A stretch of 64,000 bases of DNA from Arthrobacter dokdonellae (GTDB lineage: Bacteria > Actinomycetota > Actinomycetes > Actinomycetales > Micrococcaceae). Positions 40,368 to 44,661 of this stretch are shown here, piece by piece; position 1 is the stretch's first letter; every line of letters starts with the position of its first letter. The notes under the pieces were generated by a model that saw only the letters and a list, made by a program, of their open reading frames with translations, did no database searches and was not told where the DNA came from. The stretch covers positions 2,604,001 through 2,668,000 of the forward strand of contig NZ_CP029642.1 of assembly GCF_003268655.1 (NCBI RefSeq). The letters are read 5' to 3'. Made by a program: the position numbers and the translations under genes.

Positions 40368-42893
40368 CTAGGCCGGGACGATGTTGACCAGCTTAGGCGC
40401 CCGGACGATCACCGTGCGGATGCCTGCGCCGTCGAGGGCTTTCTGCACCGCTTCCGAGGCCAACGCAAGGTCGCGCAGTTCGGCCTCGGTGATGTCCGGG
40501 GAAACCTCGAGCCGGTCGCGCACCTTGCCCTTGACCTGCACGACTGCCGTCAGGGTTTGCTGCACCAGCAGGGCCTCGTCGACCTCCGGGAAGCCCGCGT
40601 TCGCGACGGATGCCGGGTGGCCCAAGGCATTCCACATGTCCTCGGCCGTATAGGGGGCGAAGAGGCTCAGCAGGATCGCAACCGCTTCGACGGCCTCGCG
40701 CACCGCCGGGTCTGCCGGGCCGGCGCCGGAATCGATGACCTTGCGGGTGGCGTTGACAAGCTCCATCAACTTGGCGACGACCACATTGAACTTGTGGCCT
40801 TCCAGCAGGGCCTTGGCCTCGTGGATGGTGCGGTGCGAGGTGGAGCGCAGCGCGGGGTCGCCGGTGGACGGGTCCGTGCCGGGTTCGCTGGACACATCAC
40901 GGCCCAGGCGCCAGGCGCGGGCCAGGAACTTGGCCGAGCCCGACGGCGAAACGTCCGCCCAGTCGACGTCGTCCTCCGGCGGGCCGGCGAAGACCATGGT
41001 GAGGCGGACGGCGTCCACCCCGTAGCGGTCCAGCTGCTGGCCCAGGTCCACGCCGTTGCCCAGGGACTTGCTCATGGCCTTGCCCCCGTTGAGCACCTGG
41101 CCCTGGTTGAGCAGGCGGCTGAACGGCTCGGTGGCCTCGAGCATGCCCATGTCGTGGATGACCTTGGTAAAGAAGCGCGCGTAGAGCAGGTGCAGGATGG
41201 CGTGCTCGACGCCGCCCACGTACTGGCCCACGGGCATCCAGTCGTTGACCTTGGCCGGGTCGAAGGGGCCCTCCGTGTACTGCGGCGAGACGAAGCGCAG
41301 GAAGTACCAGGACGAGTCGACGAACGTGTCCATGGTGTCGGTGTCGCGCCTGGCCGCGCCGCCGCACCGCGGGCAGCTGACGTTAACCCAGTCGCTGGCC
41401 GCGGCCAGGGGCGAGGTGCCCTTCGGGGAGAGGGCCTCGCCGCGCAGGTTGTCCGGCAGGCGCACGGGCAGCTGGTCGTCCGGGACCGGAACCTCGCCGC
41501 ATTCGGCGCAGTGGACAATCGGGATGGGCGCGCCCCAGAAGCGCTGGCGGGACAGCAGCCAATCGCGCAGGCGGAAATTGACGAACTTCTCTCCCGTGCC
41601 CAGTTTCTCCAGGATGGCGATGGCTGCCGGGATGGCCTCGGCCTTGGACAGGCCGTTGAGTTCGCCGGAATTGATCAGCGTCCCCTCACCTGTCGTCGCG
41701 GTGCCGGACACCGCCGGGTCCTCCTCGCCCGTGTCCAGGACGGCGCGCACGGGCAGGTCGAAGGCCTTGGCGAAATCGAGGTCGCGCTGGTCGTGGGCCG
41801 GGACGGCCATGATGGCCCCGGTGCCGTAGTCCGCCAGCACGTAGTCGGCCGCCCAGACGGGCAGCCTTTCGCCGGTCAGCGGGTTGACGGCGTAGCGTCC
41901 GGTAAAGACGCCGGTCTTGGCGCGGTCGGTCGACTGGCGTTCGATGTCGCTGAGGGCCTTGACCTTTTCTCGGTACTCGCTCAGGGCCTCGGCGTGCTCG
42001 GCCGTGACGAGTTCCAGTGCCAGTGGCGCGTCCGCGGCCACCACGAAGAACGTTGCGCCGTAGAGCGTGTCGGGGCGGGTGGTGAAGACCGTCAGCTCCT
42101 GCTGAGGTTTTTCGGCTCCGCATTCCTCGATGACGAACGTGACGTGCGCGCCTTCCGAGCGGCCGATCCAGTTCTTCTGCATGGCCAGCACGCGGTCCGG
42201 CCAGTTGCCCTGCAGTGCGTCCATGTCATCGAGCAGCCGGTCGGCGTAGTCGGTGATCTTGAAGTACCACTGGTTCAGCGACTTCTTGGTCACGATGGTG
42301 CCGCAGCGCTCACAGGCGCCATTGACAACCTGCTCGTTGGCCAGGACCGTCTGGTCCTTGGGGCACCAGTTGACGGGGGAATCCTTGCGGTAGGCCAGGC
42401 CGCGCTCGTGGAAGCGCTTGAACAGCCACTGCGTCCACCGGTAATACTCGGGGTCGGAAGTCTGCAGGCGGCGCGACCAGTCCACCGAGATGGCGTAGCG
42501 CTTGAACGACTCCGATTGGGTGGCGATGTTGGCGTAGGTCCACTCGGAGGGGTGCGCGTTGCGCTTGATGGCGGCGTTTTCCGCCGGCAGGCCGAAGGAG
42601 TCCCAGCCGATCGGGTGTAGCACGTCAAAGCCGAGCTGGCGCCAGTAGCGGGCGACGACGTCTCCCATGGCAAAGGCCTCCGCGTGGCCCATGTGCAGGT
42701 CGCCGGAGGGGTACGGGAACATGTCCAGGACGTAGCGGCGTTCCTTGGAGCCGTCGTCGAGGGGGGTAAATACCTTCAGGTCCTCCCAGACGGCCGGCCA
42801 TTTGGCCTCCATCGCGGCGAAACTGTAGACGCCCTCGTCGCTGTTCTCTTCAGTCTGGGACTGCACGCTCACGTACCCTGCCTTTTCAATCAT
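40368..42893 (-). CDS. leuS: Leucine--tRNA ligase
   Basis: Class I aminoacyl-tRNA synthetase charging tRNA-Leu. 841 residues. The HIGH box appears as [15 protein letters not shown], the KMSKS box as [14 protein letters not shown]; the CP1 editing domain lies between (including [17 protein letters not shown] and [13 protein letters not shown]). Zinc-type Cys pairs ([30 protein letters not shown]...[10 protein letters not shown]) are present. ATG 42893 has AGAGG 6 nt upstream; GTG 42872 (VSVQSQTEE) with AAAAGG upstream is equally possible. A leucine-codon leader ORF and terminator-like hairpin precede it. Confidence 0.96.
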
Positions 42894-42923
42894 CTGTGGC
42901 CTCTTGCACTGTCATGCCATATA

Positions 42924-42954
42924 CACACAAAAGCCCCTCGACTCAGCAAGGGGC
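42924..42954 (-). terminator. Attenuator terminator hairpin before leuS
   Basis: On the reverse strand GCCCCT (42949-42954), a 10-nt loop and AGGGGC (42933-42938) are followed by TTTTGTGTG. It lies between the leader ORF and leuS, so read-through is needed to express leuS. Confidence 0.6.
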
Positions 42955-42955
42955 G

Positions 42956-42977
42956 GCCGCAACGAACTGGTTGCGGC
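42956..42977 (-). promoter_or_regulatory. Pause/competing hairpin of the leuS attenuator
   Basis: Perfect 8-bp arms GCCGCAAC/GTTGCGGC with a 6-nt loop. Its first base overlaps the stop codon of the leader ORF, so a ribosome finishing or stalling there would affect its folding. Confidence 0.55.
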
Positions 42978-43003
42978 TAGCTAAGGAGGAGCGTTGTGTG
43001 CAC
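42977..43003 (-). CDS. leuS leader peptide MHTTLLLS
   Basis: An 8-codon ORF: GTG CAC ACA ACG CTC CTC CTT AGC TAG. Three consecutive Leu codons sit near the end, followed at once by two hairpins, the second with a T-run. TAAAGT lies exactly 6 nt before the GTG, so the leader would be translated from a leaderless mRNA. This is the classic layout of ribosome-mediated attenuation: scarce Leu-tRNA stalls the ribosome and alters folding. Regulation is inferred; no T-box motif was seen. Confidence 0.65.
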   Translation of the reverse strand: MHTTLLLS

Positions 43004-43009
43004 TTTTCC

Positions 43010-43015
43010 ACTTTA
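43010..43015 (-). promoter_or_regulatory. -10 box TAAAGT of the leuS leader transcript
   Basis: TAAAGT on the reverse strand ends 6 nt before the leader GTG at 43003. The leader to leuS is about 110 nt. Confidence 0.55.
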
Positions 43016-43043
43016 GCGCACTGTCTCCTCCCCTTAACCCAAA

Positions 43044-43136
43044 ACTGTGTTGCACTTCTTGGACCGAGATCACAGGACCGATATCAGCGAAATGACGTCT
43101 AATTCGTCCTAATTCGTCCAACAAGTGCAACACAGT
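43044..43136. repeat. Inverted repeat with 21-bp arms downstream of glpK
   Basis: Arms 43044-43064 (ACTGTGTTGCACTTCTTGGA...) and 43116-43136 match at 20 of 21 positions, 51 bp apart. The interior has direct repeats (TAATTCGTCC twice, GGACCGA twice). On the glpK strand the structure is followed by TTTT, so it may end the glp transcript; it could also be a small miniature element. Confidence 0.6.
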
Positions 43137-43146
43137 CGGGGGGATG

Positions 43147-44661
<1,515 letters not shown>

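Follow-up and report, generated by a model that had tools for sequence, protein, structure and literature searches.

We identified, directly upstream of leuS in Arthrobacter dokdonellae, what is probably a leucine-controlled, ribosome-mediated attenuator that acts on a leaderless message and is homologous to the Streptomyces LeuL2 element. In the 64,000-nucleotide stretch of DNA that we analysed (hereafter the window), the device is placed between glpK and leuS on the minus strand, the same strand as leuS, and its parts are as follows:

43010..43020, minus strand: −10 element TGCGC-TAAAGT of the extended type, with TAAAGT at 43015..43010 kept in 23/23 genomes of the window's genus
43003, minus strand: predicted transcription start on the first base of the leader GTG (leaderless), placed from the spacing
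42977..43003, minus strand: leader peptide ORF, GTG CAC ACA ACG CTC CTC CTT AGC TAG (fMet-HTTLLLS, 8 codons)
42983..42991, minus strand: Leu codons CTC CTC CTT, three in a row
42956..42977, minus strand: hairpin A, 8 bp, from folding and covariation
42933..42954, minus strand: terminator hairpin T, 8 bp, 1 nt behind A, by sequence
42923..42932, minus strand: U-rich tail TTTTGTGTGT
40368..42893, minus strand: leuS, leucine--tRNA ligase (TIGR00396), with its true start probably at GTG 42872

This layout and its coordinates had been described correctly in the sequence-only reading, which listed TAAAGT, a 6-nt spacer, an eight-codon Leu ORF, its stop, two hairpins and TTTT. The spacer between TAAAGT and the leader GTG is GGAAAA in the window. 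Hairpin A (GCCGCAAC-CAGTTC-GTTGCGGC; 42977..42956; −13.4 kcal/mol, z −4.6) has as its first base the G of the leader stop codon TAG. Hairpin T (GCCCCTTG-CTGAGT-CGAGGGGC; 42954..42933; −13.2 kcal/mol, z −2.8), followed by TTTTGTGTGT, has the sequence of an intrinsic terminator and is predicted to end transcription between the leader ORF and leuS. The identity of LeuS is given by a TIGR00396 match at 959 bits against a cut-off of 548, and about 40 bases separate T from the leuS start if this is ATG 42893, or 60 if it is GTG 42872. As GGCAGGG-TA[C/T]-GTG is kept at the leuS start in 23/23 genus members (TAC in 22, TAT in 1) and the frame from the upstream ATG is not kept among them, the true start is probably GTG 42872 behind GGCAGGG, not ATG 42893.

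An Rfam search of 42000..44000 gave no match up to E 1, T-boxes included, and so bore out the earlier observation that leuS has no T-box here. The accompanying remark, that leuS in actinobacteria is more often discussed with T-box control, does not agree with the accessible text of PMC1262725, which assigns T-boxes to ileS and leader-peptide attenuators to leuS. The device appears once in its own genome: GGGGCTTTTGTG is single-copy, and a covariance search in which 150 of 3485 first-look candidates were scored, with a model that included the window sequence, returned one match up to E 1, at E 5e-17. By eye, a 14-bp perfect inverted repeat (43136..43123 and 43057..43044) lies between glpK and the leader.

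Comparison among relatives supports translation of the leucine leader, in that Leu is kept through synonymous codons and the start and stop codons interchange. Among 85 eight-codon family leaders, Leu stands at codons 5, 6 and 7 in 72, 65 and 85, respectively; the parser required at least one Leu, which in part predetermines the 85/85 at codon 7 and does not predetermine the synonymous variety. All three Leu are present in 62 of these 85 leaders, 14 codon combinations are used, and codons 2–4 and 8 are variable. Leaders start with ATG (97) or GTG (22; n = 119) and across relatives end in TAG, TAA or TGA. The last Leu codon is CTT in 74 and CTA in 21 of 100 family leaders (95 together), compared with 25 CTT and 1 CTA (26 together) among 318 Leu codons in seven ORFs of the window. 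Sensing of a single tRNA-Leu isoacceptor, through CTC and CTT only, would fit most of the genus and was rejected for the family, which also uses CTG, TTG and CTA.

Among 124 parsed leaders, a TANNNT box precedes the start codon by 6 nt in 94 and by 7 nt in 26, together 120/124, a count conditional on a parser that accepts only TANNNT 5–8 nt before ATG or GTG plus at least one Leu. With the usual distance from a −10 element to the transcription start, this spacing puts the 5′ end of the RNA at the start codon. The leader mRNA is thus predicted to be leaderless and to begin on the leader start codon, and the comparison agrees with the proposal that the ORF starts at the first nucleotide of the message.

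Judged by its recurrence, the device is no accident. ORF, A and T occur in the same order upstream of LeuS in 23/23 genomes of the window's genus. Across the Micrococcaceae, it was found in 20/31 genera, with 11 genera lacking it, and in 106/136 sampled genomes; because the sample comprised the 23 genus members, 80 genomes across all other genera with data and a last 33 drawn only from already-positive genera, the proportion of genomes is an overestimate, whereas that of genera is unaffected. The sample covers 113 of the 140 non-genus family genomes with a LeuS match. The other 30/136 lack the device by the parser, and 19 of these were also read by eye; in two leaders (L134 and L022) the element is visible, and these stand outside the 124 parsed and inside the 106 positives. 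A search of about 85,000 species genomes for a 17-base T pattern, GAGGGGCTTTTGTGTGT, gave at least 118 matching stretches; among these, 102 were titled as Micrococcaceae (Arthrobacter, Pseudarthrobacter, Paenarthrobacter, Sinomonas, Tersicoccus, Psychromicrobium or Micrococcaceae, with one Sporosarcina-titled record counted in) and 16 otherwise. Among the matches listed, a leaderless ORF with at least two Leu is present in 96 of the 102, the six misses being four cut stretches, one masked and one (L349) real by this rule. A leader of this kind occurs in 1 of the 16 otherwise-titled records listed, under the title Vibrio cholerae. This record (L345) and the Sporosarcina-titled one (L263) hold Arthrobacter-type leuS leaders and are probably mislabelled.

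Beyond the family, a covariance model (R1) built only from short-form leaders, 22 from the family and one from family f25, matches 106/296 genomes of the class (E ≤ 0.01). The 29 best-scoring loci beyond that of the window all lie before leuS, five of them recognised through a reversed-frame match; the downstream gene was checked for these 29 and for 20 further stretches, and some weaker matches are leaders of other genes. When 40 of the 60 positive non-family genomes of the class search and 14 of its 56 without a match were inspected, 20/54 parsed as attenuators, plus one more (L197). An Rfam search on 11 leader loci gave only a sub-threshold miRNA match (L248, 375..450), which lies before the leader and was taken as chance. 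Two LeuS types occur in the class, one of about 840 aa, as in the window, and one with open frames of about 1000 aa (Streptomyces-like); the same leader stands before both (L186 and L187 versus L150–L183), as though leuS had been replaced under a switch that stayed in place.

In S. coelicolor and S. avermitilis, leuS was predicted in 2005 to be preceded by leader-peptide attenuators, as set out in the accessible part of PMC1262725, and the accessible part of a 2021 report describes LeuL2 of S. lividans TK24, which lies before leuS, is leaderless by RNA-seq and has a hairpin and a U stretch (PMC8079986). The window device resembles LeuL2, as described there, in its position directly before leuS, its short ORF, predicted to be leaderless, its three adjacent Leu, its hairpin and its U-rich terminator. 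R1 matches Streptomyces-like genomes (G178, E 3.9e-5; G197, E 1.6e-5) in which the leader encodes MRAVRLLLSEPR, and the Streptomyces-like leaders L186 and L187 combine this peptide, identical to that of LeuL2, with the same A–T layout. Taken from these likenesses of sequence and layout, the window device is homologous to the Streptomyces LeuL2 element. The two forms differ in that the window and most Micrococcaceae have 8 codons with UAG just before A, whereas the Streptomyces-like leaders have 12 codons with UGA inside A, and in that the LeuS downstream in the Streptomyces-like genomes is longer and of the other type (open frames of 996 aa in G178 and 1067 aa in G197).

The two hairpins are conserved in different ways. 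In 23 aligned leaders, the A and T helices are paired in 95.6% of cells. Double-change cells number 31, compared with 9.8 in shuffles (0/500 shuffles as many), and all 31 are in A. Swapping A arms between genera weakened the pairing from −12.37 to −6.36, a loss of half the pairing energy, and 0/100 swaps were as strong. Comparison across relatives therefore indicates that hairpin A is selected as a structure. An alignment over the Micrococcaceae had been suggested as the check on conserved Leu codons and covarying stems: Leu proved to be kept as an amino acid, not as a codon, and A covaries, but T is nearly invariant in the 23 aligned leaders and contains no double change. T also passes the swap test (own arm −12.23, swapped −11.09; 0/100 swaps as strong). 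A one-base deletion in a T arm occurs in 2/23 genus genomes (L012 and L022), and 6/7 genomes of genus g24 (L072, L109, L127–L130) keep a single-Leu leader, with the rare CTA, and a different terminator.

The position of A is fixed at both ends, and its size is not. In 84/119 leaders, A begins 8 nt past the base on which the last Leu codon starts, and in 65/119 it begins 14 nt past the base on which the first one starts. In 77 sequences, 76 of which are from Micrococcaceae, the stop codon lies immediately before A. In 33 it is inside A or overlaps it; these comprise 19 of the 20 non-family sequences and 14 family ones, a part of the latter being mis-detected hairpins, for example three of genus g20. 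As the distance from Leu to A is fixed and the stop position less so, it is the distance between the sensing codons and A that is kept. At the other end, the gap between A and T measures 0–3 nt in 119/121 sequences with an A (100/101 family, 19/20 class), a set that includes three g20 sequences (L064, L120 and L121) in which the wrong hairpins were picked up; most often the gap is 1 nt (74/121), and three family sequences are without A. The inner length of A varies widely (sd 8–12), and its gap to T has an sd of about 1. Under unconstrained folding, A ends within 3 nt of T in 115/117 sequences, compared with 1511/2340 (65%) shuffles, so the flush position is enriched, and is neither unique nor rare by chance. 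In three of the five genomes of genus g28 (L081, L092 and L135), A and all but one Leu codon are lost together, and T is retained directly behind the stop codon.

We modelled translation of the leader by masking, with an assumed ribosome footprint of about 13 nt ahead of the start of the A-site codon. With the ribosome placed at the first Leu codon, A is predicted to form in 77/100 family and 12/19 class sequences, A falling below P 0.5 in the other 23/100 and 7/19. With the ribosome at the last Leu codon, A is predicted to form in 3/100 family and 0/19 class sequences, and with the ribosome at the stop in 0/119. Since a ribosome at the last Leu codon would already prevent A, the signal would have to come from stalling at the first Leu codon alone. 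The values of this model for pairing of the T 5′ arm were set aside, their mean at the stop position being negative and so impossible. The T stem is predicted at P > 0.5 at each of these positions (first Leu, 115/119; last Leu, 115/116; stop, 114/115).

The sequence-only reading had called this the textbook layout of ribosome-mediated attenuation, a description that the comparison does not support: A and T share no base, and no alternative pairing clearly coevolves. Specifically, we did not find a mutually exclusive antiterminator among the pairings tested. Unlike A and T, none of these pairings is clearly successful in the swap test, which is low in power where one partner is invariant. No coevolution was seen between the A loop or A flank and the T 5′ arm, between the A 3′ arm and the T loop, or between the A arms and the T 3′ arm. 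The pairing of the A loop with the T 3′ arm, of the ilvB-II type, scored −3.68 for own and −3.67 for swapped partners in the family, where 51/100 swaps were as strong; in the class, 71/100 were.

The nearest of all candidates corresponds to classical competition, in which the leader ORF (region 1, CUC CUC CUU) would pair with the T 3′ arm as an antiterminator. The whole transcript of the window does fold in this way (−44.1 kcal/mol, z −5.4), with the arm-to-ORF pairing at P 0.99; a T 3′ arm that had to match the Leu codons should be nearly invariant, as GAGGGG is; and in the family own pairs are slightly better than swapped ones, 5/100 swaps being as strong. The gain over swaps is, however, tiny (−10.76 versus −10.67; family −7.30 versus −7.14; class −8.54 versus −8.29, with 13/100 swaps as strong), in a test that is weak here, both sides being almost invariant. 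Pairing of the T 3′ arm with the ORF exceeds P 0.5 in just 7/124 sequences, for which reason the long ORF:T hairpin was rejected as a conserved antiterminator. Moreover, the ribosome would mask region 1 both when stalled and when at the stop, which gives the wrong sign for leucine sensing. We consider classical competition very unlikely.

A weaker base-pair competition would run through the tail: the 3′ arm of A, once freed by the ribosome, would pair with the U tract and lengthen T, and folded A would withhold the arm. The sign of this lengthening suits repression by leucine. In the window, T with the freed arm reaches −15.5 kcal/mol compared with −13.2 for T alone, GCGG pairing with UUGU, and the gain from lengthening T exceeds 1 kcal/mol in 88/88 family and 18/19 class sequences. 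The A arm and the tail nevertheless lack coevolution (46/200 family and 162/200 class swaps as strong), swapped tails lengthen T about equally, and the arm–tail pairs of the window are mostly G–U. As the switch itself, this pairing appears improbable to us.

We instead favour, tentatively and with less than even confidence, a mechanism suggested by the anatomy, in which folded A would hinder T by the space it occupies and not by competition for base pairs. The ribosome would start on the bare 5′ end of the message. When charged tRNA-Leu is plentiful, it would reach the stop codon, where its footprint would open the 5′ arm of A; with A opened, T would close behind it, and transcription of leuS would end. 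When charged tRNA-Leu is short, the ribosome would wait at the first Leu codon, where its front edge would barely touch A, and A would stay folded. One base from T, folded A would take up the room in the RNA exit channel that T needs to close as far as the hybrid inside RNA polymerase; closure of T would be hindered, and leuS would be transcribed. This step may be aided by the open A arm, which can lengthen T. Exclusion by space would explain why A drifts freely and varies in size at a fixed gap to T. In the folding model, T is favoured wherever on the leader the ribosome is placed, and it is only with the space argument that the anatomy would give a switch. It counts against the attenuator reading as a whole that the window RNA in full length, taken alone, prefers a third fold, that of the ORF with the T 3′ arm, that 30/136 sampled family genomes are without the device, and that L081, L092 and L135 retain T in the absence of A. 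The opposite view, in which neighbouring hairpins aid each other's termination, has been published for other terminators, according to the accessible part of PMC8355165.

That part of PMC8355165, in which adjacent hairpins are also described as terminators, would suit a further reading, that A and T together form a constitutive double-hairpin terminator, which lowers leuS expression without a response to leucine. The predicted stability of T in all states is in keeping with this reading, as is the finding, in the accessible text of PMC1262725, that changing codons of the ilvB leader in Streptomyces coelicolor made no difference. Against a constitutive terminator stand the maintenance of Leu through 14 codon combinations at a fixed distance from A, the rare CTT or CTA at the last Leu codon, and the joint degeneration of the Leu run and A in L081, L092 and L135. 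Weighing these, we give the constitutive reading little credence.

The tail behind T is itself patterned. The pattern TTTTG-Y-R-TGT is mostly kept in the family; among 96 family tails that begin with TTT, position 8 is T in 90, position 9 is G in 88 and position 10 is T in 87. The tail resembles a possible elemental pause site, with the 3′ end on its eighth base. We rejected the idea that the RTG of the tail is a second start served by GAGGGG as ribosome site: class tails have CTG or no TG, and the frames behind are, by eye, closed or unrelated. In many class members, for example L168, L153 and L174, TG[TC]C[CT]GG is kept after the U tract; GC-rich DNA behind a terminator is said, in the accessible part of PMC4824070, to raise termination.

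Leaders of the same build also precede other genes. Among 20 stretches chosen because the model matched twice in a genome or away from LeuS, the downstream gene is leuS in seven, acetolactate synthase (ilvB) in seven and citramalate synthase (cimA) in six; the cimA query was a reversed frame, and two ilvB and two cimA genes were confirmed with NCBIfam above cut-off. Instead of Leu runs, the ilvB and cimA leaders contain runs of Ile, Leu and Val codons, and the gap between A and T is 0–3 nt in 12/12 analysed of the 13 (L237 was left out). The ilvB leaders (L238, L239, L241, L243, L245, L247 and L248) have ILVV, ILVL, VVVV or ILLVV runs and flush hairpins; the cimA leaders, from other Actinomycetes (L229, L230, L235, L236, L237 and L244, with L237 not parsed), have IIIP, IIIS, IIIR, HIVIP or LIIT. 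A literature search, with most subscription journals outside its scope, found no published report of cimA leaders.

These leaders raise the possibility, on balance doubtful, of a class of attenuators in the Actinomycetes, before leuS, ilvB and cimA, that would switch without an antiterminator: a hairpin abutting the sensing codons, 0–3 nt before the terminator, would block closure in the exit space when left folded by a waiting ribosome, such that any stable hairpin would serve, its sequence would drift and the two spacings would stay fixed. The Corynebacterium leaders of ilvBNC and ilvB-II, as described in the accessible parts of PMC11857589 and PMC10272879, are similar in being near-leaderless branched-chain leaders with two neighbouring hairpins, the second a terminator. 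They differ in that an antiterminator sharing terminator bases has been proposed (at a GCC boundary, or between the P1 loop and P2a), and the one for ilvBNC is reported in the same parts as partly tested by mutation. The equivalents of these pairings at leuS did not coevolve in the swap tests. Given the base-sharing antiterminator proposed for Corynebacterium ilvBNC, the space reading is not to be extended to ilvB as it stands.

Compared with trp-type attenuators, the leuS device likewise has an intrinsic terminator between leader ORF and gene, but the mutually exclusive terminator/antiterminator pair was not found among the pairings tested. With the LEU element of actinobacterial leuA, as presented in the accessible text of PMC1262725, it shares the leucine leader peptide and the phylum, and it differs in that at leuS a terminator stands between leader and gene. 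No report of a leuS leader for the Micrococcaceae was found in the literature search, most subscription journals being outside its scope. The Micrococcaceae leuS device thus appears to be of a kind already known from Streptomyces, with the Micrococcaceae as new carriers.

The finding would add the Micrococcaceae, Arthrobacter and its relatives, to the known leuS leucine attenuator, a device that is spread over much of the class and can be detected with one covariance model. It also brings together about 120 natural variants, across which the two arms of A coevolve, as do those of T, and no tested antiterminator pairing clearly does. These variants bear on an old puzzle described in the accessible text of PMC1262725, namely that actinobacterial leaders resemble attenuators, yet codon mutations in them gave ambivalent results.
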